From contig CAUYUJ010019348.1 in assembly GCA_963575745.1 (NCBI GenBank), positions 609,728 through 673,727 of the forward strand: a DNA stretch of 64,000 nucleotides. Reading direction: 5' to 3'. Source of the stretch: Prorocentrum cordatum. Lineage: Eukaryota > Sar > Dinophyceae > Prorocentrales > Prorocentraceae. The position numbers were made by a program, and so were the translations under genes. The notes below the pieces were generated by a model that saw only the letters and a program-made list of their open reading frames with translations, was not told the origin of the DNA and ran no database searches. Below are positions 23,448 to 50,880 of this stretch, one piece after another (position 1 is the first letter of the stretch; each line of letters opens with the position of its first letter).

Positions 23448-23527
23448 GACTGGCGGGCCCCTGCTGTCAATTAGGAAAAGAGTCTGGCCTCAAGAACGGG
23501 TATTTCTTCAGGGCTGCTGCGGGGACC

Positions 23528-25896: not shown

Positions 25897-25900
25897 ACTG

Positions 25901-28010: not shown

Positions 28011-29049
28011 CTACGACGCCAACCGCGACGAACACAGGATGCTGATCACCAAACCAGCCCGTAACAGGGGCACAGGAACAAGCACGGGAGCTACTCCCAC
28101 GCGAACGGACAAAACGCCCACAAGAGGCTGAACTACACCATCAAGAACGCCTCCTCGCGGGGCGAGGGGGAGGATGAGAAGACGTACGTGTAACTGGGCA
28201 GCGGCCGCTAGCCTTTAGGACCTTCGAGGACCCTAGAGGCATCGGCTTCGGTCGCCCCCTCTCTTCGTTCGCCCAGGAGGCCCCTCCCTCTCGCCTCGCC
28301 TTGCCTCTGGCCCTCGGTTCCCCCTCCTCCCTCGGTCCAGGTGGCCCCTCGTTCTCGCTCCGTCCTCGCGCTACTCCGTCGCCCTTTCGGATTTGGGCCT
28401 TCGGGGTTGCGTGTTCCTTTCAGAGGCTTTTAGAGGCCCCTCCAGAGGATCTCAGAGGTAGGGGGTCATGCGTCGCGCCGCGCGCTCGGGCGCGCGCGCG
28501 CGGCGCGGGCTGCGGCGGATAAGAACCGCTTTGCCCGCAGTGTCGCAGGAGGGGGAGGAGGAAGTCAAGCAAGGAGGAGCGAGGTACTGTGATGTGTACT
28601 GGGGACGCCCCCCCCGCCCCATCGGAACTGCCATCACCTGAAGAACACATGCTCTGGCAGACCTGGTTTAGGGACTAATACAAGCCAGCGGCGACGAAAA
28701 GTTGGGGGTGGGGCCGATCGGGCCGACGGCTTCCCTCGGGCGCACGAGCGTCAAAGGATGTGGAGGAGGGGGAGGAGGAGGAGCAGGGAGGAGCGAGGAA
28801 CTGTGGGTGAGCCCGAGGCGGGAACCAGGAGGACGACGACAAGGTGGGGCCGATGGGGCCGACGGCGTCCCTCGGGCGCACGAGCCTCTGCCACGCTGGC
28901 CCCGGGGCCCGTGCGGCCTCTCCGAGCTCGCCATCGGGCGGCCCGGGCGCAAGCCGCGCCCGCGGGCCGGCCAGTGGAGCGGCGGACAAGCTCCCTTGCT
29001 CCACTAGCGGCGATTCAAAGATCGGGCCCTCAGGGATGGGGCCCTAGGG
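28011..29049. other. GC-rich spacer with diverged direct repeats
   Basis: No gene is recognised. The block GTGGGGCCGAT.GGGCCGACGG followed by TCCCTCGGGCGCACGAG occurs near 28707 and near 28844 (spacing about 137 bases). A GGAGGAG-rich segment ending GGAGCGAGG.ACTGTG occurs near 28550 and near 28770. This indicates an old local duplication. Confidence 0.5.
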
Positions 29050-31019: not shown

Positions 31020-31097
31020 CAAATGTTATTTTTTTTTCTCCTCGCCCCTCTCTCCATACCCCTCGTCCTCCACGCCCGCGCCCTGGCAGCGAGGCGG

Positions 31098-32441
31098 CTA
31101 CGCCGGGGGGCCGCGCCCGTGCGCCAGTCGGAGGCCGGCAAACCAGGCCGGGCCCCGGGCGCCCCCGCCCGTCGGCTCGCCAGCGGCCCCCGCGGCGGCG
31201 CTGCAGCCCGCAGCGCCGGCAGCCTCCGCCGCAGCGCCTCCGGCGTCGCCAGGGCCAGGCGCGCCGGCTCCCCCAGAGCCGACCGCGCCCGCGATGGACT
31301 CGAACGCGGCCACGAGCTCGGCGACGCCCGCGGCTGCGCCGACCCCCAGGTGGGCTGCGCCGACCTGGCCCGCTGGCCCCGCGGGCCCGCCAGTGCCAAC
31401 CGGGCCGGCGACAGCGTCCGCTTCGCCCGCCACGCCGGCCAGCGCTCCCGCCAGCGCCTCGCCTCCTGCCGGTTCCGCCGTGCCCCCCCGAACGGTTAAG
31501 TCAAGGGCGGGGGACAGGCGGGCAGGGCAGGAAGCGGGCGACGCCGGGCAGGAGGGGGCAAGCGAGGAGGTGGACGAGGAGGAGTCGGACGGCGCCGCCG
31601 GCGAAGGATCCGCGGGCGGATCGACGTCGGAGGCGGCGTCGGCGGCGTCACCTGCACCGGCGGCCCCGGCCCCCGGCAGGAGGGCACCGACATCCCCTCG
31701 GGCGAGCCGCGGGCCGCACGCGCCGACCATGCGCGCTGCTCGGCGCCAGATCGCGGCGCCGATGGCGGTGCGGGCCCGCGCCGCGAGCGCGTGCAAGGGC
31801 GCGCCCAGGCGCCTCCCCGCTGCGGCCGCCATGGACGCGACCGCGGCCGACGCATCCTCGTGCGGGCGGCCCCACGTTGTCCAGACGAGCGGCCGGTAGG
31901 CGATCCCGTCGGCCGCCAGCGCCGGCAGGTGCGGCGCGTACTTGCCGACCTTGCTGACAACGTAGGCGGCGGCAACATCCTCGCCGGCCCCGGCCGCGTG
32001 CGGCGCCACGATGCCCACGTCGAGCGCCGTCAGCCGGCCAAAGGCAGCCGTGGTGAGCACGTCGGCCGGGCGGAGAAGCGGCGCGGCCTCGATGAGGCCC
32101 AGCGCCTCCGACCGAGCGGCCCCGTCGGACAGGGAGGCCAGCGCCAGGAGTTCGTCCCGCACTCTGTTGTGGCCGCGCGTGGACTCCCCCGGGGCACAAC
32201 ACACGGCGTGTGCCCCGTCGATGCCCCGCTCCGCGCCGCACCGGGAGCACGCGCCAGGGGTCACGTAGACCGGGGCGCCAACGCGCAGGCGCGCCGCGCT
32301 CAGGAACTCCTCTGGGAGAAGCGCCAGCGCCCCGGAGTGACCCCAAACAAACGGGTGCCACGGGGGGGCCACGCCCGAGAGCGCGACGGCCGCTGCAATC
32401 GCGTAGCCTGGGGACCCCAATGTGCTCGCACCAACAATCAC
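31098..32441 (-). pseudogene. C-terminal part of a LINE with restriction-like endonuclease (5'-truncated)
   Basis: A 447-codon open frame without the RT part. It has a zinc-binding patch CSRCGAERGIDGAHAVCC (C65, C68, H78, C81), then GHNRVRDELLAL. The restriction-like endonuclease core follows with RPADVL (124-129), LDVGIVAP (140-147) and SKVGKYAPHLPAL. Then come YRPLVWTTWGRPHEDA and an Ala/Arg-rich helical end. CCHC plus a PD-(D/E)XK-like core is the C-terminus of early-branching LINEs of the R2/CRE type, and this wording is typical of dinoflagellate copies. The RT that should precede it is absent, as expected for 5' truncation. The Ala/Pro/Gly-rich last third may be read-through. The frame lies just next to the foldback element. 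Confidence 0.7.
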
Positions 32442-34320
32442 TCTGGCGAAAGGCCACTCTTACGTGTAGCCAATAGGAAAGGGTCCAAGGTTGGATCTGC
32501 ACTGTTCGAGGCACCTCGTCCGTAGGGGCCCATCCCTCAGGGCCCCATTTTGAACCACCGACAGGAGGGAACCGCGACCCTGTGATGGGGAAACCACAGG
32601 ATAACGGTACGGCTATTCCCTGGACCTCTCCCGAGGTGCACTCCGACCAGAACTTCGAAGCGAATCCGGCTGTAGCGATGGGGGCCACCCAGGAGGCCCC
32701 CGAGAGGGGGAAACGAGGCCAGGGCAGCTGCATCGGTATATCTTTCGCCGCTGAGGCGAGGGGGGACGCAATGCCCGCGCCCCCCTGTGGTGCCGGACGC
32801 TCTGCGGCAGTGCCGCGGCCGCACTGGGGAGGGACGAGCGTCCTGGGCATGACGCTCGTTACTGCCCAGAGGGTCGACAACAACTCTCGCGGGAACTGAA
32901 CCCTGGTGAGGGAAGGACCTGGGGCCGTGCGCCGACAGCTCCCTGGACATCCAGCTGCTCCGATTTTGTTCGATGCGTCTGCCAAAAACTCGCCGCTTCG
33001 ATTTTTTGGAGTGTCAGATCTCTGGGTCCTGGAGGTGGACCGCGCTGGCCTCGAGATGCCCCTCCTTGAAGGCGGTCGCCCAGGGCAGACCCGCAGCAGC
33101 CCAGGCCGTAACAATGGACGAGAAAGCTGTATGATTTTTCTGCCTCAGAAGCCTAGCGGTTGCGTGCTGGGCACCAGCCCTAGGGTCTGCTCCGCTACTT
33201 GTGAGCCAAAAAGCTACTGGCTGTGAAAGCCACGATCGAGACCTAGCAAAACTGGCAGGGCAAAACATCTAGTGAACACCCCTGGCGCTTTCAAACGCAA
33301 CGTTTGAGGAACGCGCTGGCCTCGAGAGGCCCCCCGAAGGCGGCCGCCCAGGGCAGACCCGCAGCAGCCCAGGCCGAAAGCCTGCTGGGCCCGGCGCTCT
33401 GGCGCCTCGCGCCGCGCGACTGCCGCGGGCCGGCCCAGCGGCGCCGCGCGCTCGTCGAACAAGGTCTCGTAGTAGGCGTCCTGCTCGGCGCGCCCCAAGT
33501 CGGGGGGGACGACAGGGTAGGACAGCAAAGGGCAGGGCAGAGAATCAGCTCACGCAGCTGGTTTTCATGGCGCCTCCTGGCGCCGGGAGGCGCCCATGGA
33601 TCGATGAATGGGCCCGGCGGCGGGGCCAAAACCAGCTGCATGATTTCGCAACCGCCCTTGCCCTTTCGTCCAGCCCGACCAAGGCGGTCCAACATGGTCC
33701 AAGATGGCCTGGGCGGAGGCGAGCCTGCCCAGCGATCCGACGCTCCCAAAAATTTGGGCCGCGGGTTTTGGGCCGTTTTCGGACGCCAAGGGCCCTCGCC
33801 GGGCCTTGGGGCCGTAGACAACGGCTCAGGACGCAAAACAGGCCCCAGGGAGGTGTTCCAGACCTCTGGGGCCCACGCATCGGAAAAACTGGATCAGCCA
33901 GATGTCTGGGTCGGCGCGCCCCGAGGCGGCCCAAGATGGCCCCAAGGTGGACCCCGAGGGGGCCGCCAGGGCGGAGAAGCCAGAGATTGCACAGGCAACA
34001 CTTTCGGAGGTCCACGCGGATCTCTCGTCTCGGCGCTGCACTCCCCCTGCATCCCTCCTCCGGCGAGCGGAGCGTGCAAGGGGCATCTCTCCTTCTCCCT
34101 CCCCATGCCCTCCTCCTCCTCCTCCTCCTCCTTCTCCTCCTCTTCCTCCTCCTCCTCCTCTTCCGTTTCCTCTTCTCCTCCTCCTCCTCCTCCTCTTCCT
34201 CCTCCTCCTCGTCCTCCTCCTGCTCCTGCTCCTCCTCCCTTTCCTAAAACACCCCAACCCTGGAGCCCTCAGGAACCCTCCCAAACCTCCGCCATTCTCA
34301 GAACACGTACCTTCCCCCTT

Positions 34321-34354
<34 letters not shown>

Positions 34355-34802
34355 TCCTCTTCCCTCTGCTCCTAGGAGGGCCGCTTCTACTTGCTGCGTC
34401 GCCCAATCGTTCTGTACGATGGCTCGGGGCGGTCTCTGAGCTACCTCCTCCTCCTCCTCCTCCTCCTCCTCCTCCTCCTTGTCCTGGTGTTGCTGCCGCT
34501 CCTCCTGGATGCCCTACTGCTCCACTCCCTGCGCGCTCGTGACGAGGAGGAAGAGGGGAAGGCAAACAGGCAGGGAACCTCACTTTGCGTGCGTGCGAAG
34601 TTGGGGGGCAGAGTAGGGCAGGGAGGACTGGGAGCACGAGTGGGGAAGGTCTCCTCCTCCAGCTCCTCCATCTCCTCCTTTGGCTCTAGCCCCAGCTCTG
34701 GCTTCCAGTTCAAGCTCCTCAACCTCCTCCTCCTCCTTCTCCTCCTCGTCCTCCGATTTGTCCTTTGGCACGCCCCATCTCGCGTCGCCGTCTTCCAAAC
34801 CG
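32442..34802. other. GC-rich spacer with direct repeats and simple repeats
   Basis: No gene is recognised. It holds the partner of the 6.4-kb block (32622-32686). A direct repeat of about 68 bases, 33041-33110 and 33312-33381, starts CGCGCTGGCCTCGAGA and ends CAGCAGCCCAGGCCG. From 34110 a series of CTC and CTG microsatellites runs to about 34750. The long open frames here (for example plus 33304-34542) are Ser/Pro/Leu translations of these repeats. Confidence 0.5.
34110..34500. repeat. CTC and CTG microsatellites
   Basis: CTC repeats occupy most of 34110-34245 with a few interruptions, CTG repeats 34321-34347 and CTC repeats 34442-34482. They lie just outside the left end of the large transposon. 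Confidence 0.9.
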
Positions 34803-34810
34803 CCCGGCTC
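34803..34810. repeat. 8-bp target site duplication, left copy
   Basis: CCCGGCTC directly precedes the left inverted repeat of the large transposon and is repeated exactly at 49491-49498, directly after the right inverted repeat. The neighbouring bases beyond the eight do not continue the match. Confidence 0.8.
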
Positions 34811-34851
34811 TAGGGAGTTTCACAGGTGCAGGGCCAGGGGGCCGTACAGGC
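34811..34851 (+). repeat. Left terminal inverted repeat (41 bp)
   Basis: Begins TAGGGAGTTTCACAGGTGCA and continues GGGCCAGGGGGCCGTACAGGC. It pairs with 49450-49490 with seven mismatches and no gaps. Confidence 0.75.
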
Positions 34852-35848
34852 GGGCACGGGGCAGGATCGCGCTGGAGCAACAGGAAACAGGCAATATCAG
34901 CGGAATGCATCAGGTCGGTCCGAATTCACACTGGAAATAGCTTGATCTGACCTCGCGGCCCTGCACCTGTGAACTTCTCTCAGCCAGGAGGGAGGAGCGA
35001 GCATGAAGGAAGGAGGAGCGAGGGGAGGATGGGGGAGGAGTGAGGAGTGAGGGACCCCCAAATCGGTACCGATGGAATCCCCGAAACAGGAAGTGACAGT
35101 CGAGCCACAGCGCGGCCTGGGTACCCTGAAAACCAAGTAACAGGACCACTGGAGTCCCCCAAACCCGAAACCTTTGCCATGTCATGGCATCGACGGCGAC
35201 GCCCTCCAGCCCAGTGGCAAAGTGGCGAGCTGGCCGTCCAGAGCAGCCGGCCGGGCCGCGCCGTTGTCGTCACCGTCGTTCTAGCCGTCGTTGTTGTCGT
35301 CTCCATCGTCGAATCATCGTCGTCGCCGCTGTCGATGTCGTCGGGGCCACCGTCTTCGTCCCGAAGTTTCCGTTGTCGTTGTGACGTCGTCGTCGTTGAT
35401 GTCCATCGTCGTCGTCAGAATCGTCGACGTCGATGTCTATCGTCGTCGTCGTCAGAATCGTCGACGTCGATCGGTGTTGTCGAGAGTCATGGATCGTCGT
35501 CGTAGTCATCATCGATCGTCGTCGTCGAAGTCGCCGTCGACGTCGTCGATGCTGTCGTCGACGGAGGTCAGACTCAGAAGCCTAAGTTGATTTCTTTCGT
35601 TGCCATGGCATGGGAAGGATGCACAACAGAGCAGCCTCCGAAACGATGAGTCAACACCAGACTCTAGACGGCCAGCAGCTATGCAGCATCGCACGGGGAA
35701 GTATGCAAGTCGGTCGCTATGTGTTCATGTTTTGTGTGCCTGTGTTTGTTGGCTTTGTTTGTTGTATTCTCTCTAGCTTCGAACCCTCGTGCAGGGAGGG
35801 GACCGATCTTGAAAACTGACAGTGCCAGCTTTTTTCAGAACTGATGCA
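34852..35848. other. Left non-coding end of the transposon, with GTC-rich repeats
   Basis: No gene is seen. The stretch 35265-35560 consists of GTCGTC-type trinucleotide repeats in which a longer unit, GTCGTC...AGAATCGTCGACGTCGAT, appears at least twice. Downstream codons of the third gene end at 35849, so this is the 3' flank of that gene. No polyadenylation signal can be named with confidence, as dinoflagellates lack a clear AATAAA. Confidence 0.6.
34957..34974 (-). repeat. Subterminal copy of the inverted-repeat core
   Basis: GGCCCTGCACCTGTGAAC is the reverse complement of the core of the left terminal repeat and lies about 125 bases further in, in inverted orientation. Subterminal copies of end motifs often serve as transposase binding sites. 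With the left end it could also form a 160-base hairpin. Confidence 0.6.
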
Positions 35849-38829
35849 TCACTTCCCAGCCGTGTCATCATCTTTCTTCTCATTGGGGTCGGGGTTCTTC
35901 TTGATGATCTCAAACACCTCCTTCACCAAAGCCACGTTTTTGTTCAAGCCATCTAGGCTGCTGACCAGCAGCTCCATAGACTTGCTCGCGAAGTTGATGC
36001 TGTCGCCGTCGAAGAAGTGAAGGATCGACATCTTCACGCACGCCATATCGTCCACAGGCTTCGTGTGCTCCATCAGGATCCATCCAGTGGGCGTGTAAGC
36101 GAAGTCTCCCTTCGCGACCGTCGCCTGCTTGATGGAACCGGGGTGCTCCCTGATGAAGTCAGCAATCTCAGCACTCGTCATCGCGGCAATCTTCTTGAAA
36201 CAAGCCTCGAGGGTGATGCCCTTGGAGTCCGAAGCCGCAGCCTCGCTGATGTTCTTACCAGACCACGCTACGTAGTTGTCTGCGCGCACCATCACGACGT
36301 TGGCGATGCCTTTGAGGGTCAGGCGCAACTTCGGCATGAAACAGTTCTCAGTGCCAGCATACTGGGCGTCGGCGGCACTTGCTGACAAGGCTGGAACGAG
36401 GAGCTTGAACACTTCAGGGTGGTCTTTCTTGAAGGTGTCAGGGTTGTACAAGTACTTCTTGAGTTCATCGGGGAAGCATCCAAGCACAGCTGTCATTGCG
36501 CGCTGCTGATCCGTAGGGTCCTTCATCGGCGCAGTCGCGCGCCCTGAGCTGGTTCGTTGTGGGCTGTTGAGAAACTTCTGTTGGAAAGCTTTCAGCGTCG
36601 CCTCCGGTACCGCTGCGTCCACCTGGCTGCCGCAGCCAGTCACCACGAAAGGCTCCTGTAAGGACTGCGGGAATACAGAAAGATGATGAGCGAGAGGGGA
36701 GGTATGATGCGAGAAGGCCTTCATGGTCGACTCGTGGCCTTTTCAAGCTGACTCCGACGATGGGACCACACAAAACCAAAAAGCAAAGGCCTTCCTCCCG
36801 AAACCTGACCTCATCGAAAAGTGGATTTCGTTCGATTCGAACCTCAAAGCAGACCTCGAAATGATTTTCCAAAGCCAGGAAGGAGGGAGGTGGAAGCGTG
36901 ATTGCCCCATTGCGTCCAACAGGCTCGGATTGCTGCAGTTGGTCGCCTCGAAGCTGTAGGCGTTCATCTGCTGATCCTCGCCGTGCTCGAAGTTCAGAAT
37001 GTCGCCAGTGGTGTTGATCTTGGCCTTCTTGGGCAAGGGTGGCCCCATGACGGCCGCAGCTGCGGACTTGGCGGCGGCGGCCTTCGTCTTGTTCTCTTGG
37101 ATGGTCTGCAGCTGCTTGGCGCGGGACTTGAGCAAGGTCTGTGCATCTTTGACGATGGCTTTGTTGGCGCCGATGAGCTGATTCATCTTGACCAGCTCTG
37201 CTTTGCACATGTTCTCGAACGTCTTCAACTCCTCAGCGCAAGTTGCGGCCGAGAACTCCGTCTGCTTGTCCTTGAACTCCTCGATAGAGATGATGCTGAG
37301 AAAGTCCGGGCACGGTGATTTCCTAGTATGCGACTTCACCAAGGCTTGGTACGCCTTCAGGTTACAAGTTTGCGAAAAGGCAACCAGAGCTTCCTTGCGC
37401 AGCTGCAAGATCTCCAAGTGCTTCTTGAAGTATTCCGCGTCCTCGACCTGATTGATCATCTTCTTCTCCACATCCACAACCTCAGACAAGGTCTTGTCAG
37501 CCAACTGCCTCACTTTCTCGACCGTCTCCAGGTGCTTCGTTTCTGCCTTGAGGGTCTGCGTGTCGCGATCCCAGCGCCTCCTTTTCTTATCATTGCCATC
37601 GCCTCCTCCGCCGGCGCCGGCGCCCGAGTCGACAGAACCAGCTGTGGACTCAACCTCCAGCAGATCGGCGTCCGACTCCGACTGCTGCTGGCGAATGCTG
37701 GCGATGATGTCTGCAACTGAGCCTGCCGCTGTCGCAGACTGCTTTGATGAGAAGGTGCCCAGGTTCAACGGGGTGAAGGCGGATGCTAAGGAGGACCTGT
37801 GTTCTTTCTGCCTCTCTTCCACGGCCTCCTTGTCAACGAGATTCTCGAGCTCACGGAACGACGAGTGCGAATTCGTCAATGAGCGCTTCATGCTGGCAAC
37901 GGCGGTCTTCGAGGGCTTCTTCTGTTCGGCCTCGCGCTCCCTGACAGTCACTTGCTCGCCTAACTTGTTGCGGTCGTGGACGGTGTCCCGCACTTTCACT
38001 TTGATCCGAAGAGCCTTCTTGGGACCGAAATTGTCGCATTCGGTGCCTGGCTCCTTGTCCTCGACGGCTTCCTTTCGGAGGGCACCAACTATACACCAAC
38101 GCCGATCCTGGCCCAGGATCACCCTGGGCCCAGGATCGGTGTATATGCCTTCTTGCGCAAGGCAGGAGGGCGTATACACCGATCCTGGGTCCAGGGTGAT
38201 CCTGGCCAGGATCGGTGTTGGTGTATAGTTGGTGCCTTCCTATCCTTCGTCAGCCTGGCCCACTCCGCTGCAATCTCGGGGTCAGTCAACCTGCCCCCTC
38301 GCGCAGACCTGCAATGCTCTTCAAAAACCATGAAGGTCATCATCTCGCTTTCGCCGTCGTGCTCGGTCTCGGTGATCGCGTAGGTGTCCTTGAAGAATGA
38401 CGCGAAGTCGAAGTGGGCGCGAGCTCGCCCCCGCCCCAAAGAGGGCGCATCCTCAGCAAACTTCTTCATGAGGGCCATGAGTTCAGCGTTGTCCCCAGTC
38501 GCTGCCTTTTTCTTCAGAGCCACCACGTACTTCTTTTCCTTCTTGTCCTCCACCTGGTCCAGAAGGGCTTCCCAGTCCCTCATGTGGGCTGGGCACATGT
38601 CGACCTTGCGCTTGCTATCAAATGGCTTTTTGTCCACGATGCAGATCTTCAGCGTTGACTTCTGGTTGCCCTCAGCCTGCGGAGGCGGCGGTGCCGCCTT
38701 AGCTGGCGATGGAGTTGTTGGCCCAGACGACGAGGGCGTTGCTGGAGAGACTCCGCCCTCGCGAGGGCTAGGGATCTCGACCTCGGCGAGCCCTGACGCG
38801 CCGAGCTCCTCTTCCCACTCGTCTCCCAT
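35849..38829 (-). CDS. Cargo gene of unknown function, about three exons
   Basis: Exon 1 is 38829-38236 and starts MGDEWEEELG. Exon 2 runs from 38071 to about 36947 and exon 3 from about 36655 to the stop at 35849, giving a protein of roughly 840 residues. Exon 1 has a Pro/Ser-rich N-terminus, basic Lys-rich helices and FDFASFFKDTYAITE. Across the first junction it reads LTDPEIAAEWARLTKDRK-EAVEDKEPG, then FGPKKALRIKV. This layout (an E..A.W helix followed by GP..LR..V) recurs in many uncharacterised dinoflagellate proteins. Exon 2 has a basic patch DKKRRRWDRDTQT and long coiled-coil helices. Exon 3 has AYTPTGWILMEHT near its end. No catalytic motif is visible. It may be a DNA-binding partner of the transposase or methyltransferase, but this is only inference from its place inside the element. 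Confidence 0.7.
36656..36946 (-). other. Intron 2 of the cargo gene (donor ambiguous)
   Basis: On the minus strand the acceptor TCCTTACAG is followed by in-frame GAGCCTTTCGTGG. The donor is probably GAG|GCGACC (GC donor, intron of 291 bases), which keeps the frame. GAC|GCAATGG 33 bases further into the intron would also keep it. Read-through of exon 2 soon becomes unlike the rest of the protein and ends in a stop, and exon 3 read upstream gives only a short start. Confidence 0.55.
38072..38235 (-). mobile_element. Introner-like intron: 164-bp hairpin with GC-AG ends
   Basis: On the minus strand the exon ends GATAGGAAG and the intron begins GCACCAACTATACACC. It ends CCGAAAG before GAAGCC, and removal joins K and E in frame. 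The intron is almost all inverted repeat: arms of about 69 bases (38081-38149 and 38168-38236) differ at about four positions and enclose an 18-base loop. AGGAAG occurs at both exon borders, as expected of a target duplication. The arms hold nested CGATCCTGG palindromes. Hairpin introns with inverted and direct repeats have been described as introners in dinoflagellates and other protists. Confidence 0.8.
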
Positions 38830-39908
38830 CGCGCTGCTGCCTGATCACCGATTGCAACCTGCAAAGAGAGCCCTGGAGGGCGCCAGATCCTGAAAGGCTA
38901 GAACCCAGATGTTCTACGGAAGATGAACAGCAAGGCCCAGGAGAAGAACTCGTGGACCGAGGAGTCTACCTCCAGTCGCTTCTTAGGTAGCCTCACGTCG
39001 CGCATCGCGCCTCGCGAAGCGCTGTTATCCGCGCGCCCTCGCGAGACCACCCTGGAGTTGCGTTGCTCTCCAAACCGGTGTCAGCTTTGGCCGCGACCCG
39101 CGATGCGCGATTATTTTCAAGCTCTTGCGGGGGCGACTCTAGGGCTTCGACGTCCGCTTCGCCGTTGGCGTCTGTGTCTTCCGTTCTCCCCCCACCATGT
39201 TAATGGATTTCTACTCTTCCTTCTCCTCCACCTCATCCTCTTCATCATCGTCATCATCATCATCATCAACATCGACGTTGTTGTCGTCGTTGTTTCTTGT
39301 TTTGAAATTCGTCAGGGCTTTTTGGGTTGAGACCTGTTCTGGGTGTATCCTACCGCCCGGGGCGCTTCTGGGTAGGGGCCCGTAACACTTGCACATGCCT
39401 TTCACGCCCGGGGCACATGTGAAAACTCTGGACGGGGCCCCAAACTACATTTACGCGTTTTTGGTGAAACCTATTGTTTGGGAAATCACGTCCCAAGAGG
39501 TACCCGACTGGATGGGGTTCTCGGGAATTCTCGAGCCTCCAAATTACATTTGCGCGTTTTGATGAGTGCACTGTTGCGCTTCAAACGTGCAGGATACTCG
39601 ACCAGCACAGCCCAGACCAAAGACTCGTCTCAAGGCACGGGTAATGATGCAATGCCATTGGGCATCCCTCAGCCTCAGATAAGTAGATACATCGACGTCG
39701 GATATGGCCAACGTGCCCAGAACGTGCGGCACTGGGAGGGGCGGCGACGCAAGGTTGCAAGGGTAACATTGATGAGATATGGTGCCCTCACGTGAGTCAA
39801 AGACCTCAGCGCGAACTCAGATCACAAGAGCATGTTTTACACTATATCATGCAATTTGTTGGCCACGACTCCCTGACATCCTATATGATGCGAAACTCGC
39901 GAAACGTA
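38830..39908. other. Intergenic stretch between cargo gene and methyltransferase
   Basis: No gene is recognised. A short run of CAT/TCA trinucleotides lies at 39240-39275. Two related segments, AAACTACATTTACGCGTTTT near 39434 and AAATTACATTTGCGCGTTTT near 39541, form a diverged direct repeat. Small open frames here have no support. Confidence 0.5.
38858..38860 (-). promoter_or_regulatory. Candidate spliced-leader acceptor of the cargo gene
   Basis: About 28 bases upstream of the ATG the minus strand reads CTCTCTTTGCAG followed by GTTGC, a short pyrimidine tract with AG. Dinoflagellate mRNAs receive a trans-spliced leader at such sites. There is no independent support. Confidence 0.3.
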
Positions 39909-41597
39909 TCAACCAGCGTTTGCCCCCGCGGGCTCCATGCACGCAAGAACGTATACAAGCAATGGGCCTACGACGCCGACGTGCATACCATTTCCAGCCA
40001 GTGACTTGACATCGTCACCTGACAACGACTTCGATCTGAGAATAGACATGAATGGGCAGCGGTGCGGGAGATCATCGCCAAGCACAGGGACACCTTGTAC
40101 TTGAAGGTGCTCCAGAGGAATCATCACGCGCTTCAGGGATAGAGAATACATCAACGATTTCCAAAGAAGCGTCGGCATTACACTGATGCATCGTGTAATG
40201 TGCTCCGCCGTGTCCTTCAAGTCCACAATGACAGCGTCTTGAACATGTTTCCCCATCTTTGTGGCCAAATGTCTATGCCCTTGAAGCCTCGCCCAACTAC
40301 CAGCGTCCAGGACATCATCGCAAACCCATTCGGTCTGCCCTGAGAACTTTCGTTTTCTCGCCATTTCCCTGAACAGTTCTTGTTGCTCCTCAAACCCAGC
40401 GCAGAAGAAAGCGTTCCCATCCAAATCCACCGCTCTTCCGAACAGCCAGCATATTCCATGACCATCCAACGTGTAGGGCACATTGAATATGTATGCTGCC
40501 TTCTTCACCATGATAGTCCATCTCCGGGGCCTTGAGCACGGCCATCCAAAGTGTTGCGGCGTGATGATGAGGCTGACTATGACGTATTTCTCTTCGAACT
40601 TGTCTTGCAATGCTTTGATTGGAAAGTTGCGCGTGCATTCGTGAATGATCACATCGTCATCCTCAAAGAGGCGCTCGTGCACCCAGCACTCGAAGATCAC
40701 GGCCGTTGCCCCATTGAGACCCAGTTGTTGGCCCATTGCACTCCAGTCAATGCAAGGCGCGCCAGCCACATGCAGACGCAGCTTGCCACCAGTGCCTTCT
40801 TTGCGGAGGCGGCGGGGCGCGCAGCAACTCCGAAAGGCAGGATGACGCGCGCACGGTGCAGTCTGTTGTTCTGGGTGATTGCACGTCCTAAAATATGATG
40901 TCAAGATCTTGTCGCACTCCATTTTGAATTGGCCCGCCAGTGTTTGAGCTAATTCTTTTTTGTCCAACTTAGTTTTGCTGCTATCAGCCATGATGTCATC
41001 ATGCTGTCCGCTTGTCATTTTGCTCAAGTGTGTAAGCTGCAGAGCAACATCTCGAGGGTACCTATGCAGAATGTCCTTGAAAATACATCTTGGAGGATTC
41101 TCATGGTTACGGAGAACAGTTTGGCACACAGCGTCGATGTCTGTAGCTGATTCGAAAGAAAAAGGGCCAGGTCCCTCTGACGATGCGAATCCGAGGCTCA
41201 CTGCTGACTCTTGGATAAAAGAGCATGCCATCTCAACGCGACCCATCCCTGAGAAGCAAGTGGTGAGGGGGGCGCCGTTTGCCAAACTCTCCTTGAACAC
41301 ATCACACAGCCTTGAATCACCAGTTTTGTCTTTCAACGCTTGAATGCACCGACTAGGCCAGTCAAACAGATCGCGCATGCTCGAACAACCAGCCACCAAG
41401 GGCGTTGCGTTGCCACGGCCCCTCAGGGATCCGACTGATTCAGCTGAGCCCACGCCTATCACAAGAGATCCGGGTGACGCGTCGCCTTCCAGCTCAAAGT
41501 CCATGTCAGGAAAACCAAACGTGCTCCAGCTAACCACTTGATCCAAAATGACCCAGGAGGAGGTAGAGGAGGCGAGGCGAGCTCCATTATCAATCAA
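39909..41597 (-). CDS. Cytosine-5 DNA methyltransferase-like protein
   Basis: A single 562-codon frame carries the ordered motifs of C5 methyltransferases. LTTCFSGMGRVEMACSF (111-127) is the S-adenosylmethionine-binding motif I. SATDIDAVCQTVL (150-162) fits motif II. HVAGAPCIDWSAMGQQ (276-291) is motif IV with the catalytic Pro-Cys. DVIIHECTRNFP (315-326) takes the place of the ENV motif. HFGWPCSRPRRWTIMV (349-364) is motif VIII, and KSLAGNGMHVGVVGPLL near 530-546 is motif X. Ancestors of this form occur in many copies in dinoflagellates. The target-recognition region lies between VIII and X. The catalytic Cys is intact, so activity is possible, though ENV is changed to ECT. More 5' coding sequence may lie in the frame upstream of 41600 (SLGYDELPYRPRSSR), joined by splicing. 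Confidence 0.75.
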   Translation of the reverse strand: MIDNGARLASSTSSWVILDQVVSWSTFGFPDMDFELEGDASPGSLVIGVGSAESVGSLRGRGNATPLVAGCSSMRDLFDWPSRCIQALKDKTGDSRLCDVFKESLANGAPLTTCFSGMGRVEMACSFIQESAVSLGFASSEGPGPFSFESATDIDAVCQTVLRNHENPPRCIFKDILHRYPRDVALQLTHLSKMTSGQHDDIMADSSKTKLDKKELAQTLAGQFKMECDKILTSYFRTCNHPEQQTAPCARHPAFRSCCAPRRLRKEGTGGKLRLHVAGAPCIDWSAMGQQLGLNGATAVIFECWVHERLFEDDDVIIHECTRNFPIKALQDKFEEKYVIVSLIITPQHFGWPCSRPRRWTIMVKKAAYIFNVPYTLDGHGICWLFGRAVDLDGNAFFCAGFEEQQELFREMARKRKFSGQTEWVCDDVLDAGSWARLQGHRHLATKMGKHVQDAVIVDLKDTAEHITRCISVMPTLLWKSLMYSLSLKRVMIPLEHLQVQGVPVLGDDLPHRCPFMSILRSKSLSGDDVKSLAGNGMHVGVVGPLLVYVLACMEPAGANAG

Positions 41598-41879
41598 TCA
41601 GATCCCATCGCAGGCTCCTAGAACTTCGAGGGCGATATGGGAGCTCATCATAACCTAGCGAAAGTAAATTCATCTTGATGATTTCGTTATCGGCCTTCAT
41701 TTGCGCCAGGCGGAAACAACGTGAGGGGAATCGCCACGCTGATGTATGACTGTGAACTGGGATTGCAGGGCGTGCGCACCACAGGACCACCATTGGGAAG
41801 GCAGAACGCATGTGATAACCCAAGTGTAGACGTTGAAACGTGTGCTGGTGCGTTGCAATGCATTGAGAGCAATAAGATC

Positions 41880-42700
41880 ACATGGAATACAAGGAAAACC
41901 AATGAATAATGATCAAAGACTATGCAGAAACCAACCAAAACCATTGAAATCATGCAAAACCTTGCTAAATATCACAAAATCGTCGATATCACTATGATCG
42001 CGTTGAACATCTTCAGAAGTCATATGAAACAACCTGAAACCTTGAAAAAACATATAAAACCGTAGATGCACCATAAAATCATTACAAAACATTGAAAAAT
42101 GCAAAAAAACGCTGAGAATCGTTTGAAAAACAATAGAAACGCTTCAAAATCACAAGAAACACTAAAATACTGATACAAATTTCCAAACGCGATAGATTCA
42201 GACCATCTCAATGGATTTCAATGGGTTTTGGACGGTGTTGAGAATGGTTTTTATGTGATTTCCAATGGTTTTGGGCCGTTTCCCCGGTTCTCCCCGGTTC
42301 TCCCCGGTTCTCCCCGGTTCTCCCCGGTTCTCCCCGGAACTCCCCGGAACTTTTTTGATGATATTCAATGATTTTTGATATGTTTAATTGTTTTTTGATG
42401 ATTTCATATGTTTTTCACCAATTTTGCTCATTCTTTGATGTTTTGAACGGTTTTCAATGCATTTGTATTGATTTCACTGTTTCTGGTGTGTTTTTCACGA
42501 TTTCGTAAGATTTTGATGTATTTGAGAGGTTCTGTACGGAAGTTCATTCGTTTTTGTTGGTGTGGCTGGCTTCTGGCTGAGAGTTGTTGTTTTTGATGGT
42601 TGTCGCATGTATTTGATGTTGTTTTCTGGGTCTCAACGTTCGGTGATGTGTTTCGATGTTATCGTTTGTTTTCATGCGAGCGTTTGTTCCTGAAGGCAAC
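41880..42700. other. AT-rich stretch with a strand-composition switch
   Basis: The first half (about 41880-42185) is A-rich on the plus strand with repeated AAAACC.TTGAAA-like words. The second half (about 42210-42700) is T-rich with GATTTCAATGG and GATTTTTGAT-like words. The change lies near 42200. The two halves resemble inverted versions of one degenerate repeat. This lies between the 5' end of the methyltransferase gene and the 3' end of the putative transposase gene, and there is no gene in it. Confidence 0.7.
42281..42350. repeat. 10-bp minisatellite, seven units
   Basis: Seven consecutive decamers: one TTCCCCGGTT, four CTCCCCGGTT and two CTCCCCGGAA. The block is GC-rich in the middle of the AT-rich stretch. 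Confidence 0.95.
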
Positions 42701-42864
42701 TGATTCAGAAGATCCCCAACGAATCCCAAGGGCCTAAGGGCGTCCAAAGACTGGTACAGCCCCCAATGCTGTTCTTGCGGTTCGCATGGTTTGCCGATTT
42801 GTCTCAGGGGGACACAGATGGTAGGAGGGTGACGATGATGTGATGTGATGTGGGGGGTTTAATG

Positions 42865-45800
42865 TCAATCTGAGCTGTCCGAGCTGGGTGCAGGGGGGGC
42901 AGCAGCGCGGCCGCGCGCTCTGCCCCTCCCCCGACCCCTAGCCTTCCCACGCCCTCGTCCGGCTGGCGCAGGGGCAGCAGGGGCAGGAGGAGGGACCACA
43001 GCAGCCCCAGCTGGGCCGTCCAGGCCCGCAGGAGCGGCCCCACCAGCAGCGGGTTCGGCGTCTGGGTGGGGGGCGTACCTCATTTGTCCCAGGGGTCTTG
43101 TACACTCTCCTTTCCATCCTACGTCTCCTCCTCCCTCCTCCTCCTCCTCCTCCTCCTTTACCCCTTCTCTTCCTCCTTATCCTCCTCCTCCTCCTCCTCC
43201 TCCTCATCACTTCCTCATCCTTTTTTTCTCAGGGCTTCGCTCCTCTTTCCCTCCCTCCCTCTTCCTCCTGCGAGCCTGACTCAAGCTTGGACTCAAGCCT
43301 CTCATGTTATTCCTCCTTTCTCCTCCAGGGGCACTCGATATCGTCCAATTCAGCATCGGTAAGGACAGGTCCAACTGGGCCATCAGTGATAACATTCTCG
43401 GCGAGGAAGGCCTCGGTGGGCGGTGGATCAGGTATAAGATAAGCGCCGTGAAGCCACTTGCGGTCAAGGTGCTTGGCCTGGTTGCACAATCCTTCAATGA
43501 CCTCAGTGCGCTATCGTTATGTGCTGGTGAGGCGGAGGTCATGGTTATGGACTTGGTGCACCCTGTGACATCGGAGAAGCGATGAAATGGACAACTCGCT
43601 CTCCACCCACCATACGGCTTCTGTGTAGTAACTTTGATAGGGTGGATGGTAAAACAGCCCCAGCGAAATGTTGCAGGCGGAGCAGGAGCACCGGCTGGAC
43701 CCTTTGCACCTCCGCCTCCAGCGTGGCCTGGAAGTGCATGGTGAGCAGCAGGCGGTGCTGGTAGTGGAACCACAGGGACAGGTAGTGGAGGATGCCCCTG
43801 GTGCTCCAATTCCAGCCCGTCCATAAGAGCATCCAAGATATCTTGCTCGATACTGTCATCCAAAGCCAGCGCCCCATCTTCGTCAGACATCGCAAGCGCA
43901 GTCCGCGATTTAGGCATGGGAGCCAGCGCTGGGTCAACATTGTGCAGCATTTCATTATAGTAAGATGGCCCTTGTCCATGCTTGATCTCTGGATACCCAT
44001 GCTCAAAGACCCTCCGTGCAACTACAAGCGTCAACATGTATGGGCGAGCGTATTGCGCTGACTTGAAGGGCGTGTAGAACACCTTCATGTCTCTGTCTGG
44101 CTTATGAACAAGTGTCTGTGGCCTCGGGTGGTTGGCGTGGTACCACCCAGTGCTCTGCAGTGTCAGTAAGAGTTCATAACATGTCAAGCTTTGAACAGGT
44201 ATGCCATCACGCTTCTGGAAGACAGGGGTGGACGCATGAAGCTCTCGGTGCACCTCTATCCTATGCATGGCATCTGGCGTCAAACACCAAAAGTCATCTG
44301 GCGAATAGGCTGCGAAACCGCTTGTTGCCAGCGTCGTGAGCACCTCCTGGTCGTTGCTGTGCGGTTCTGGAGCGAAGCGTCTCTCAGAGCCTGGAGACGC
44401 ACTACATTCGATCATCCTCGTGACTAAGGCCAAGTGTTCTGGAGTGTTAGCATACCCTCGAATTGCATACACCAGTGATGGTTTCACGCTCCACACAAAG
44501 GCTTGCCTTATCAAGTCGGCGTGCTTTCCTTGCACTCCGGTCAGGATCGCCACAGGGCTCCCACTCAAGGACACTTGATGTGGAGTACTCTTGACTGCGA
44601 CATTGGCCCCGCTGGTGCTGATGGGCTTGTGGATCGTGATCGCCATGTCTTGTTCTGCGAGCCTACGCCCAGTAGCGATTGGCAAGCGCATGGTCTTCTG
44701 TCTGGAAGGGTTTTTGTCGATTACCTGGAAAATATTCGTTGATCAGTAGCTGCTGCTGGCACGATGTCTTGCACATCAGGAACACCAGGGGCCATCCCGT
44801 CATCGTCTTGTAACTCCAAATCAGCGTTTGAGGCCGCGGTTGAGGCAACGATCTCGGCCACTTCATTGACAGAAAACTTATTGCACTCCACTCCAAGAGG
44901 GGTAGTCAAATACTCATTGAGAGAATGCAGACTGACATTGGCAGCACCAGGTCCAGGGGCATCGACGACTGACCACGAGTAAATTTTGGTTGGGTCTGAG
45001 ACGTAGCGGAAATGGTCCAAAGCGAAGTTCTGAAGAGCGGATTCCATCGATCTCATCTTTCTCTCTTGCTTGTGAGAAAGGGCGTTGCGGGTTTTGTCAT
45101 CACGTTTCTTCGCATCGGTTTGCTTTTTGGTCGCTGTTGCTTGGCTCATGTATTGCGACGCAGCATCGCAATGATAAACGATACGCTCAACATCTGAATG
45201 GGCCAGCGTCGAATGTTTCATTGAAGATCTGATGTCCCGTAGAGCAGGGTGGTTCTCAAAACCAAGGGTAGACGCAACTGACAAAGGGCTCCGAACCTGC
45301 TCTAGGCATTTAGCAACCTCCTCCAGCATAGTCGACCTTGGGGACAGTGAAATGACCAAACTCCAAAGCGAGGGCGCGCTATGACGACCGAGATGCAGGC
45401 ACTTTGGGCGTCCAAGTCAAGGATGCACGGGTACCCCATGGAAACCGAACCATCCCAACAGTGGAGTTTGGTTGCACGTTTTTGGTTTATGCCTGCGCCC
45501 CCTGGTTTGACACGATCAAGTCAGGCCCACGCCGATAATCGACATGAAGCTTGTCTGATCTTGTCAAGCCGAGGGCCTACCGCCCCAGATCCGAAGTACA
45601 TTCAGATACCCCCCCCAGGCAGACCTTTCATTCAGCATCTTTTCGAACTCTGGCATGCGACGAGCATTGCTGACATAAGATGGGCCGACAGCTCGAGATT
45701 CCACGTTCAGTGAGCGCGCCCAGCTTCAACTCTCCGCTCTGCCACGCTGACAAACTTCAGGCAAGCAGCCTCGAACTCTAATTCGGGTGACTCTCGCAGC

Positions 45801-48800
45801 GGCCTGCCCTCCGCGACCGAATCAACTTGACGCCGAAGGGCCCCCTGGAGAATAGCACGTGTGTTGCATGTGTTCATGTATGAAAAAAAAACAACTCACC
45901 TCCTTTCCCCTCGCCTCTTCCTTCTCCGCATCCTTCTGCCCTCCTCAATATGATCCCTCTTTGGCCTCCCCCCAGACATGACAGGGCCTCTCCCCCTATC
46001 CTCTCCTCCTTTTTCTACATGTCCTCCTTCGCCTCCCCCTTCCTCGAGCTGTCCTCCCTTCCTACAGCTATGCTCAAGTCATTCAAACTATTCTCAACAA
46101 TTCCTGACGTACCTGCACTACCCCAACCAGCCAAAAGAGTCTCCTCAGGCTGAAGGAATCGAACACTAACTCGGTGGTGGAGCTGCGGGTCGGGCCGTCG
46201 ATCCCATTGCTGCGAAACATCTCGAGCGCACTCTCGAACAACAGTTGGGTCGCTGTGTGCCAGGGCGCATAGCCGCCATGGTATCACTCTCCAAAACGTG
46301 AGCTTCACTTCCAGGACAGACCACGCATGAGCTCGTGCAATGTCCGAACATCCTTTCGAACAAAGGTCTCGAGCGAATAAGCTGCTTCCCCCAAAGAGCC
46401 CAAGATTAGCCAAGAAAGAAGCCCCCGCCCCCCTCTGGATATAACGCGGCAGTGGGCCTGGAAAAGGAATCGCTTCAGAGCGGCGGAGCTGGCGCAGCCG
46501 AATGATCAAACTCCTGCAGCACAGATTCCAATTCCATAGGCGGCGCATGCAACGTGTTTGCAAAAACAACAATGTTGCTGTAAGACTTGGCAGCGATCTG
46601 ATCAAACACACGTTTGGCTCGCCCTGCCGCCAGCTCTGGGGCTCGATTACCTTTGTTCGGGCACGAGTGTGCAGAAGGGTTACCAGATCGAATTTCTTCG
46701 TTGTAGGCTTTCTCATTGAACCACCGGGTCTTATGAACAAATAGGGCTTCGTGGCACGGGCATCCTTCGGACCAGTTGCTCAACTCATGAATCATGTTTT
46801 CCAATTCCAGCAAAGCATGCCCCCAAATCCAAAACTTTGTCCCCTGAATAATCGGTGTCAGAGCTGCTATACTATTGTTCAGATCGGTCTCGCCGTCTGT
46901 CCTGCGATCGCGTTCCTCCTCGCGTGCGCGCTGCTGAAACTTGCTTGGGTCCCAGAAAGCTCGCAAAGGCATCATGAAATTATTGAGCAATGCTTTCAGC
47001 TCCTCGACGATTAACCCCCAACGCCAGTCAACGTGTTGTCTTATACCGTTTTTGAATACAGCTTGAAAGTGAGCACCAGGACCAACAAGACAGAAGTGAC
47101 TGAATCGATTCCGAGCATCACCATTTGCTAGAAACAATGCGAGATGTTTCAGTTGCTTGACCCACTCAGGATAATGGGGCATCTTGTCCAGGAGGCCAGA
47201 GGAGAGATTGTGACAAATATGAGCCATCGCAGGAACCGGCAGCATATTTCCAAACATGAAAGCGTTTGACTCTGGAACGTGTTCAGGACAGCCGTTATCA
47301 TCTACCAGCTCACCCAGGGCAGAGGTTTCTAGGAGCACATGTTGTAAGTCCAGGCGCGCGTGTTCTGCAAGACCCAGCTCCGTGCCCATATCGAACGCCC
47401 CAGAACGAAACGCACCCATGATTATACCTAAGTCTGCCTCGGAAGCCGTCTCCAACCTCAGCATATGCAGCAGCACGCTCAATTTATGCTGGAGGGAAGA
47501 TGCCTTCGGGAACGGAGACGTGGACTCATATGCTCCAGTCCCAGCCACTCCAGCGGCCCCTGGTTGCAAGCACTCCCAGAAGTGAGGGCGAAATATTAAG
47601 CTTGCAATCAAGAGTCGCCAGGAAGGCAGGGCAGTCGCGTATGGATACTCGTCACAACGGCCCTCGGACCTTCAGACCCAAACCTCCTGGGGCAAGGTGG
47701 TGAATTTGGATGTGTTGGACAAGATCCATCCCAAGTTCTGATTTCAGATCATCTGATAATAATTCGGCATCCGTCTCAGTGCGCCCTCGGCACCGTTCCA
47801 GTCTGACGGTCGCTCTATACAAATTTACGATGTGGCTCTTCGGAATAAAGCGCATGTCTGCCAGAAGCCAATCATGACCTACTTGAGGAGATGAATCTGC
47901 CCAAATGTACAAAACGCACTCAGATAGGCCTCCGTTGTGCGCCCACCACTTCATCAACGCAACGTCGAAGAACAACGCGTACCGATGCAGAGTAGCACGC
48001 GACGGGACTTGGATTGTTTGGACATGCTTGCATGCGACATGTGCTAGATCCGCCGGCAAAGCAATCTTCAAAGCGTGTTCCAGGGATCGTCTCACTGAGC
48101 CTCTATCACGCAGCATGCCTGCTAACCTCATGCACTCAATGATGTGTGCAGCCCGGTAAACCCTCAGCCCCCAATGCGATGAATCAATTGCATCGGAGAC
48201 CCTATTCATTGAACTCGAAGCCGTCCCAGTATGAAGTTGGCAACCCAATGCATCCAAGCCCTGGACCAGGTGCACCAGGTCTGCCTCAGTGTCTTCACCA
48301 CCCTCGGGGCCAGCTGAAGAAATTGATTCCCTTATGATAGCAGGGGCCCACCCTCGTAGACGAGAAGCTGCGAGGGAGAAGAAACTCGATGTGTTGAATT
48401 GGCGCCTGTCCTCAGAATTGGCCTCTGGTTCGTGCTTGCCTGCGCGCGAGTTTCGCCACTCTGCAGGGGGCCACAGCCTGTCGAATACATCTGGTATACA
48501 AGGTCTTGCTTTCGGCTGGAACCATCTTGCCAAGAAACCAATCCTGGTCCAGTCACACCGACAAGCAAGGGCTGCAATCGGATACGGCAGTTGAAGGCAC
48601 AATGATGGTAAAAGGACGCCCCATTCTGATGCCAGATCGTTCACTGAGGTTTCCCGCATCATCGGTGCAATCGAAAAGTCAACGCCCAGAAGATCATCCA
48701 ATTGAGCAGACGAAAGCTCGAACACAACATCCTTCCGACTGAGAACAAACCGCTCTGGATGAATTGCACGTGGCCATTCGTTGTTCACTGCAATTGCGGA

Positions 48801-49133
48801 AATGTGGGCAGAGAAAAAATCAGAAGGGCGCCCCCAGAGTTCAAACAAAAAGCGTTCTTCTCGGTTGAATTGTGTCAGCGGCCCCTCCATCGCGGTGCCT
48901 GGGGAGATCAACGCCAATGCAACTATACTAGAATTGGCTTCCTCCTGGGCGAACTTTTCCAGAGTGTGTTCCTGAGCATGATTTTCCAAACGTTCCACGA
49001 TCCATTCCTCATTCCAAGGCCTCCCTGATCTAAACTTCTGATGGCGGTCGGGCCCATGCGAGCAGTTGATACAGATATATGCGGCCACGGCCGATGCCAT
49101 CCAAAAAAAACAGCGCGAACATGTTGACATCAC
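42865..49133 (-). CDS. Putative transposase of the giant element (multi-exon)
   Basis: At least six coding blocks read in order on the minus strand: 49133-47652, 47611-46475, about 46450-46140, 45359-44721, 44691-43307 and 43083-42865. I remember the same sequence of blocks as one large protein family (about 2000 residues) from dinoflagellate genomes. Block 1 has SECVLYIWADSSPQVGHDWLL, a beta strand ending in Asp as in RNase H-fold transposases. Block 2 has VPAMAHICHNLSSGL, HVDWRWGLIVEELKALL and WSEGCPCHEAL, resembling the C/H..N and RW parts of hAT transposases. Block 5 ends FRWGCFTIHPIKV...CPFHRFSDVTGC, a likely zinc site, and needs a one-base frame change near 43490. The last block ends Arg/Gly rich and PSSDSSD. 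The 5' end lies next to the right terminal repeat. Transposase function is my inference. Confidence 0.6.
43126..43205. repeat. CTC microsatellite in the last intron
   Basis: Interrupted CTC/CCT repeats lie between the penultimate and last coding blocks of the putative transposase and are probably intronic. Confidence 0.9.
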
Positions 49134-49449
49134 AACACCGAAACGAACATCTGAACCAAAACGCTACTTATCGCAATCGGCCCCAGTCGCACCGGCAAAG
49201 GTCGACATGGTATCACGAATATTGAACAATGGATGTCGATTATTGTGCCAATCACCTTCGAAATTTGCTTCGACGACCTCTAAAATTGTCAGGCCTCCTC
49301 GGAAACCTTGAAATCCTACGCGCGTGATTGGCTGCATTCCCGACGCTGCATGATCCCCTCATTTTGAATTGTTTTTTTTTATGTCAACCATGCTCCTGTC
49401 GCTGTTTGGAATGAGCCCCTCTGCCCCAGAGCAATCCCGCCCAGCATCA

Positions 49450-49490
49450 GCCTATGCGACCCTCTGGCCCTGCACCTGTGAACTCCCCTA
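49450..49490 (-). repeat. Right terminal inverted repeat (41 bp)
   Basis: On the minus strand it begins TAGGGGAGTTCACAGGTGCA and continues GGGCCAGAGGGTCGCATAGGC, matching the left end at 34811. Confidence 0.75.
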
Positions 49491-49498
49491 CCCGGCTC
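49491..49498. repeat. 8-bp target site duplication, right copy
   Basis: CCCGGCTC, identical to 34803-34810 on the other side of the element. Confidence 0.8.
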
Positions 49499-50279
49499 CG
49501 ACTCCGGGGGTCCTGGCCCCAGATGGCCGAAGCCGCGAGGTGCTCCATCTCGGCGACGCCGTCCATGCCTCCAGGAAGAGGGCTGAAATCTTCTGGCGTC
49601 GCGGAAAAATCACGACGGCAATTTTTGTCAACGCTTTTCTGCCTAGGACAATCAAAATCCCCCCAGGACGAGAAAGCAGCCCTGGGGAAGTCACGGGTGT
49701 TCGCGGCTCGGGGCACGGGTGAGGAAGGTGCCTGTGAAGTGTCCGATGACCAGCCTTGAAGCGGATTCTCGTCGTGCGAGAAATGAGAATGACGCCAACT
49801 GTGCATCCACGACGATCTTGGCCAGGCCCGTCCTGGCTCCAAGACTGGTTTGGCCAGGATCGGCGCGCGCAACATCTGCAAGGCTGGATTTCTCCCAAGG
49901 AGAAAAAAACGAAAAAGAAAAGAGGAGGACGATGAGGAGGAGGAGGAGGAGGAATGAATGAACGAATGACTGAATGAATGAATATGAATGAATGAATGAA
50001 CGGATAGATGGATGGATGGATGGATGGATGGAAAACATGTCCTTATTGGTCCATCTGTGCCTCTGCATGCCACGCGTGTCCTGCGCTGTGTAATATGATA
50101 TCGAGAGGGCGAAGGCGTGCTATCTCACTCGGCGTGTGCTCGGCCTACTCGGGAGACCCACCAGCCCTTTTGCGCGTAGGTGGTTTAACAAAACGTTGTC
50201 TTCTCTCTGCCCAAACCCCTCTTGCCCTGCTCGGTGGAAGGGTTTACCCCTCTCCCTGACCCATCCCCTGGGCCTAGGA
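49499..50279. other. Flank right of the transposon with simple repeats and a small hairpin
   Basis: No gene is recognised. GAAT and GGAT tetranucleotide repeats run from about 49952 to 50031. A 50-base hairpin at 49813-49862 has arms CGATCTTGGCCA and TGGCCAGGATCG, words that also occur in the introner hairpin at 38072-38235. The frames here are shadows. Confidence 0.5.
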
Positions 50280-50880
50280 GGGGGCGGGGACGGAGGGGTT
50301 AGAGCGCCCAAGATGGCCCAAGATGGCTCCAAGAGTGCTCAAGAATATACCTGAAGATGGCTCAAGATAGCCTCCGGCAAACATTCAAGAGGCCCCAATA
50401 CGGCCCACAAGTGTCCTGCGAACCCTCCGAAGAGCCCCCAAACAGGCCAACATGGCTCCAAAGCCGAAGGGACATCAATGTTGTTTGCCTTCTAGCCTTT
50501 TCGCTTCCGATGGGCTCTTGAAGCCTCAAGATGGCCCCAAGAGGGCCACAAGAGCGCCCAAGCCCAAGAGCGCCCAAAGAGTGCCTCACGCCCCCGGCCT
50601 TGAGCCTCCCAGGGTGGGGGCCTGAATGTATACCCCCCCCGTTTGGAATCACGTGGGCCAGAATGGCCCCAGGAGCCCCCCCCCTTCCAGACCCCCCCAA
50701 CGAGCACCAAAAAGGCCCAAAGAAGGCCCCAGAGGAACCCCAGGAGGGCCCCCAAAATGCCCAAGAGGCTCCGCAAGGACCGCAAGAGAGCCCCCAAATG
50801 GTTCCAAGAGACCTCTGGGGGGGAAAAAAAAGCTTCCAAGGCGGCTGTTGCACTGCACTCTTCTGCACTCCCCTTCCCAA
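50280..50880. repeat. Degenerate minisatellite, opposite orientation to 1-560
   Basis: Imperfect repeats of the type CCAAGAGGCTCC, CCCAAGATGGC and GGCCCCCAAAATGCC form most of the stretch. They are the reverse complement of the words that build 1-560. Open frames in all phases are products of the repeat. Confidence 0.7.

Follow-up and report, generated by a model that had tools for sequence, protein, structure and literature searches.

What is the block of long reading frames bracketed by inverted ends in the genome of the dinoflagellate Prorocentrum cordatum: one mobile element or a chance assembly of host genes, and if an element, of which kind? The block lies in a 64,000-nucleotide stretch of contig CAUYUJ010019348.1 (assembly GCA_963575745.1, positions 609,728 to 673,727), here called the window, whose own numbering is used throughout. 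A preliminary description of the window had proposed a giant hAT-like DNA transposon carrying a DNA methyltransferase. From the sequence evidence of its boundaries, duplications, copies, gene content, and selection on coding blocks, together with the empty sites of one copy (C13408), we consider it very probable that positions 34811-49490 are a complete, giant (14.7 kb), hAT-like cut-and-paste DNA transposon with a methyltransferase gene.

Element boundaries and target-site duplication

The element spans 14,680 bp of a window with 60.8% G+C and is bounded by imperfect inverted ends of 69 nt (77% identity), the longest inverted repeat listed for 34000-50500. The preliminary description had placed these ends correctly at 34811 and 49490 but had given them 41 bp; they really extend over about 69 nt, at the lower identity. 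The perfect 8-bp duplication that it reported just outside them is confirmed, as the 8-mer CCCGGCTC is present on both sides of the element (chance at a fixed place ~2e-5). When an exact 8-mer duplication, TA...TA ends, and the inverted-end score were combined into a single score, the window reached 54 and none of 200 ten-mer-block shuffles came as high (shuffle maximum 24). Shuffling in 50-mer blocks was unsuitable as a control because end blocks stayed whole (best shuffles of 60 for the window and 41 for the distant relative C1758, with real scores of 54 and 27), and it was replaced by the ten-mer blocks. An element with inverted ends, a duplication, and genes is thus confirmed at this place.

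A 17-nt core of the ends recurs in inverted orientation 146 bases inside the left end, exactly and at the same position in all seven gene-bearing elements described below; it was not found in C14129, which holds an end-like piece. A fixed position would be expected of a predicted binding site, and Hermes likewise carries subterminal repeats (PMC10368747).

Copies and empty sites

In the 4.13 Gb genome (21,875 contigs), the left end has eight matches, the window included, seven of which run into the genes, and the right end has ten, all on contigs already matched by the left end. The ends are therefore not a common unrelated repeat, and elsewhere, too, the genes are bracketed by them, although in two copies (C19700 and C17680) the right end falls in a gap. 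The window family comprises seven gene-bearing copies, i.e., the window and six more. C11381 is a full copy, 99.5% identical over 14,663 aligned bases, with its own duplication CTCAGAGC, and C19700 is about 98% identical. A second subfamily (C13408, C15992, C21498, and C17680) is colinear with the window; DNA identity in matching blocks is mostly 75-82% and falls to 68% within some stretches of gene C. Both ends could be read in gap-free sequence in five copies of the family, three of them from the second subfamily; each of the five is flanked by a perfect 8-bp duplication, and no two of these duplications are the same. At C14129 (6746-6897) the match is confined to an end-like piece that shares 90% identity with 62 bases of the right end; the gap-containing DNA behind it shows no genes, and it is a possible non-autonomous or decayed relative.

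A 260-base query made by joining the flanks of C13408 gave 41 listed matches, two of them its own halves. The 39 elsewhere all span the junction, at 74-83% identity. Four of these empty sites were examined: CCGCGGCG is single in three and has two base differences in the fourth. A single CCGCGGCG at uninterrupted relatives indicates that the C13408 element landed in a repeat and duplicated 8 bp of it. The target repeat is a many-copy family (the best 40 of 2976 first-look candidates were scored) with GGAACGCTC-type internal palindromes. Recurring boundaries, duplications in every copy that could show them, and the empty sites of C13408 bear out the proposal of one giant mobile element.

Gene content and selection

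The long conserved reading frames of the element all lie on the minus strand (Table 1). In the distant relative C4230, gene A is joined to the first part of gene B in a single open reading frame (ORF), which suggests that A and B are one gene, B probably being the continuation of A. Three same-strand genes had been described inside the element; the shared strand stands, and the count of three fits if A and B are one gene.

Ratios of nonsynonymous to synonymous substitution (dN/dS) between the window and the subfamily-2 copies were 0.12-0.33 in blocks of gene A, 0.20-0.29 in those of gene B, and 0.19-0.37 in those of gene C, while the methyltransferase, with 525-545 of its 561 codons compared, gave 0.18-0.20, all at dS of 0.4-1.0; the blocks were chosen by tblastx similarity and are not whole genes, a choice that favours low ratios, and the four subfamily-2 copies are so alike that this is in effect one comparison. 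These values argue that every gene, methyltransferase included, is kept by selection between the two lineages.

The palindromic insertion in gene C is present in the window and C11381 and absent in all three aligned subfamily-2 copies. It looks like an introner that created or enlarged an intron in a transposon gene. A 10-bp tandem repeat, TCCCCGGTTC, stands in 6.7 copies between the methyltransferase and gene B, in the spacer (42281-42347).

Gene A is predicted to encode a Hermes-like transposase

P0003, a homologue of gene A, matches three window exon pieces in order, and Hermes is the top match of its predicted model in both fold searches, which used two aligners. The model shows an RNase H fold of the Hermes type, interrupted by a helical insertion. 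Three acidic residues, D in ADSSP, D in DMGTE, and E in ERSIEAKH, are conserved in most gene A homologues. In the model the first lies in strand 1, the second follows strand 4, and the third precedes a late helix, a comparison by position with the catalytic D-D-E of Hermes and not a residue-level structural alignment. Judged by the fold of this homologue, the gene A product would be a D-D-E transposase with an RNase H fold and a Hermes-like build, which supports the hAT-like character first proposed from the ends and the duplication. Pfam found no hAT dimerisation domain or zf-BED in the window pieces, the relatives, and 18 homologues, a weak negative for so diverged a family. One of the 18 homologues, P0013, has a Josephin domain in an open frame (E 1.4e-8), possibly further cargo or a gene-model fusion.

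The methyltransferase

A profile of five methyltransferase relatives matches M.HhaI (E 2e-6) with motifs IV-VIII aligned; Pfam DNA_methylase is reached only in two of the five sequences, at E 0.037 at best. C282, E320, R356, R358, G535, and N536 are invariant in five sequences, three of them from the window family; this set comprises the catalytic Cys, the Glu of motif VI, the Arg of motif VIII, and the GN of motif X. The DNA methyltransferase said to be carried inside the element is thus a C5-methyltransferase under apparent purifying selection.

A 302-amino-acid EukProt protein labelled Pyramimonas sp. AAC.1 (P0019) is identical to the C15992 methyltransferase at 301 of 302 positions. Either that dataset is contaminated by this host, or the element has passed between species. 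The subfamily-2 methyltransferase gene would be transcribed if the dataset is a transcriptome.

Table 1. Features of the element in window coordinates.
Feature	Position	Strand	Basis or sequence
Target-site duplication, left copy	34803..34810	none	CCCGGCTC
Left terminal inverted repeat	34811..34879	+	starts TAGGGAGTTTCACAGGTGCAGGGCC; boundary recurs in other copies
Subterminal inverted copy of 17-nt end core	34957..34973	-	exact match; left-end position 147
Gene C, several exons, no assigned function	35852..38829 (both approximate)	-	conserved blocks
Palindromic insertion in gene C, ~170 bp	38073..38244	none	inverted arms; adjoins short direct repeats
C5 cytosine DNA methyltransferase, single 562-amino-acid ORF	39912..41597	-	profile match to M.HhaI
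Methyltransferase motif X	39975-39998	-	sequence motif
Methyltransferase motif VIII	40518-40538	-	sequence motif
Methyltransferase motif VI	40632-40649	-	sequence motif
Methyltransferase motif IV (PC)	40740-40760	-	sequence motif
Methyltransferase motif I	41241-41264	-	sequence motif
Gene B, probable 3' part of gene A transcript	43328..45329 (43328 approximate)	-	conserved blocks
Cys/His-rich stretch CPFH...CTK in gene B	43552-43599	-	sequence
Gene A, predicted hAT-fold transposase, several exons	45612..49130 (45612 approximate)	-	conserved blocks, homologue P0003 fold
Proposed catalytic E in VAERRVEAG	45719-45745	-	gene A motif
CPCH motif of gene A	46745-46762	-	sequence
RW motif of gene A	47015-47026	-	sequence
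Proposed catalytic D in DMGTE	47378-47392	-	gene A motif
Proposed catalytic D in ADSSPQ	47883-47900	-	gene A motif
Right terminal inverted repeat	49422..49490	-	read inward from 49490: TAGGGGAGTTCACAGGTGCAGGGCC
Target-site duplication, right copy	49491..49498	none	CCCGGCTC

Distant relatives and wider families

Two distant relatives also have terminal inverted repeats and an 8-bp duplication. The C4230 element (20033-35820, 15,788 bp) has different ends, TACAAGGG, and the duplication GGGCTCCC, and its gene order A-B-methyltransferase-C is that of the window, with 24-50% amino acid identity in matched pieces; C13545 has the same left boundary as C4230 and a different flank. The C1758 element (270869-287574, 16,706 bp) has ends TAGGTAGTTTCCC and the duplication CGCAGGAG and holds gene A and the methyltransferase; searches with the C4230 proteins found neither B nor C in it.

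Wider matches were listed for the best 77 of 917 methyltransferase candidates and the best 113 of 715 gene A candidates scored. The 78 methyltransferase rows correspond to 76 places (second pieces in C19700 and C459 left out), and the 115 gene A rows to 111 places (one of C21498 and three of C725 left out). Among the listed matches, to which the following counts refer, close copies of the methyltransferase (at least 69% identity; 8 of 78 rows, 7 places), gene A (at least 78%; 8 of 115 rows, 7 places), and gene C (at least 66%; 7 of 10 rows) occur only in the seven elements. The other three gene C matches are weak; two of them, in C16330 and C8936, have a gene A match about 14-15 kb upstream on the same strand.

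For 30 of the 76 methyltransferase places, a gene A place is listed on the same contig. In every one of these pairs the two genes share a strand and gene A is the upstream one, and in 29 they lie within 24.4 kb; 0.03 were expected under random placement. The 29 places with gene A listed no farther than 30 kb away are not independent, as seven belong to the window family and several others are near-identical copies; 47 have no gene A listed that near, and 46 have none anywhere on the contig. The association of gene A and methyltransferase is thus old and recurrent, not universal. Both families consist of many strongly diverged lineages, with at least 76 methyltransferase and at least 111 gene A places. 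The preliminary description had attributed their abundance to one giant element, which is only partly supported: the 29 paired places agree with it, whereas the window family has just seven gene-bearing copies and the unpaired places are more numerous. Some methyltransferase relatives without a listed gene A partner lie in ORFs of 1245-1337 amino acids and larger, and these may belong to other methyltransferase-carrying mobile elements.

Alternative explanations

The locus might be a composite: ordinary host genes that by chance lie next to a small non-autonomous element or between two solo ends, with 34811-34985 as a mini-element. The inverted core ~140 bp inside the left end could indeed pass for a miniature inverted-repeat transposable element, and C14129 offers an end-like piece without genes. 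We regard this as highly improbable given that the whole 14.7 kb recurs with the same boundaries, at 99.5% and 75-80% identity and with 8-bp duplications outside the outer ends, that the C13408 empty sites lack the entire element, and that the listed close gene copies all sit within such ends. A large multi-gene element in a protist would also fit an endogenous DNA virus or a Polinton-like element, which are common in protists. This reading seems just as remote: the transposase has a predicted hAT fold, and ten ORFs scanned as single sequences, a weak search, gave no significant viral Pfam family (best viral-type match, one phage packaging family at E 0.095).

A transposon of the Kyakuja-Dileera-Zisupton (KDZ) group is a more serious competitor to a hAT-like one, albeit an unlikely one. 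Duplications of 8 bp are reported for Zisupton and a Dileera family, TET/JBP genes are cargo of the fungal Dileera and hAT7 elements (PMC12730594), and gene A has a CPCH...C cluster. However, no Pfam KDZ family matched at E 1 in the window pieces, relatives, and 18 gene A homologues, and the fold matches Hermes, a result that stays compatible with KDZ, as the comparison included no KDZ structure. Slightly less unlikely, though still improbable, is that the methyltransferase is a passenger or host-serving gene caught in the element. Related methyltransferase ORFs do turn up where no gene A partner is listed, and Symbiodinium retrotransposons also carry methyltransferases (PMC5890265). Yet its place between B and C is kept in a lineage only ~30% identical (C4230), its close copies are listed only in the elements, and it is under purifying selection like that on the transposase.

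Besides the limits of the dN/dS estimates and the unpaired methyltransferase places, several points weigh against a hAT-like transposon with a methyltransferase. The structure was predicted for P0003, which is only 24-33% identical to the window exon pieces; its Hermes matches have 10-12% identity and, in Foldseek, a root-mean-square deviation of 11-14 Å over the whole alignment. Sequence comparison with Pfam, NCBIfam, and PDB gave no match in support of hAT, and all five duplications depart from the nTnnnnAn pattern reported for Hermes. Exon joins are drawn from comparisons, not RNA. In place of the Pro that precedes the catalytic Cys, C4230 has Thr and C1758 has Ile; the 17-kb stretch surrounding C15194 has no convincing ends, and the gene A relative of C725 (four pieces, 49-59% identity) lacks a listed methyltransferase. 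Several other copies carry stops or frame breaks, and no movement, excision footprint, or transcript was seen for the window copy.

A proposed mechanism

In the hAT-like transposon that we favour, the gene A protein would bind the terminal repeats and the subterminal repeat, excise the element, and join it to a target with an 8-bp stagger by hAT-type chemistry, and filling in the stagger would create the 8-bp duplication. The element may still be mobile. The methyltransferase, a putative standing member of the element's gene set alongside gene C, would be active and would most likely methylate the element's own DNA (or the target). New copies could then match the methylation state of the host and blend into a methylated genome; methylation might protect them or control the access and binding of the transposase.

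Relation to known elements and significance

Elements of the hAT superfamily have TAGGG-type ends and are usually a few kb long. Unlike them, the window element is ~15 kb long with several genes, among them a methyltransferase, has no sequence-level match to hAT families, and has target sites that depart from nTnnnnAn. It resembles Hermes, Ac, and Tol2 in predicted transposase fold, 8-bp duplications, short inverted ends of the TAGGG type, and subterminal repeats (the last known for Hermes; PMC10368747). Fungal TET/JBP-carrying DNA transposons (hAT7, Dileera, Zisupton, Kyakuja, and others; PMC12730594) likewise have a DNA-modification enzyme beside the transposase, some with 8-bp duplications, but theirs is a dioxygenase, on the demethylation side, whereas ours is a methyl-writing enzyme in a different host group. 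SymbioLINE-Dnmt and SymbioDIRS-Dnmt3 (PMC5890265) are dinoflagellate mobile elements with C5 methyltransferases; they are retrotransposons with reverse transcriptase, in contrast to a DNA element with a predicted hAT-fold transposase. Ten ORFs scanned with Pfam gave no reverse transcriptase match, short ORFs being outside that scan. Teratorn, likewise a very large element with a DNA transposon as its basis, is piggyBac-based, measures 180 kb, and includes a viral part. A search of the open-access literature, with PMC11071213, PMC12730594, PMC5890265, PMC10666404, and PMC11453091 among the sources, turned up no report of a dinoflagellate DNA transposon with a C5 methyltransferase, the methyltransferase retrotransposons and the TET/JBP-carrying fungal transposons coming nearest; most subscription papers, preprints, and Repbase were outside the search. 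DNA transposons encoding methyltransferase, from marine viruses, are mentioned second-hand in PMC5890265, so the pairing appears to have precedent.

The hAT-like transposons would thereby be extended to ~15 kb with several genes, with exact ends and copies now defined for experiments, and orphan gene families of this genome gain likely names: transposase and transposon methyltransferase. DNA methylation is a common silencing weapon of hosts, and an element that conserves its own methyl-writing enzyme would reverse the roles. We lean, by a modest margin of belief, towards an ancient and diverse superfamily of giant hAT-like transposons in dinoflagellates, with a core methyltransferase that writes their own epigenetic mark, as a main source of the large orphan methyltransferase and protein families. 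If so, this superfamily would be the cut-and-paste counterpart of the methyltransferase retrotransposons.

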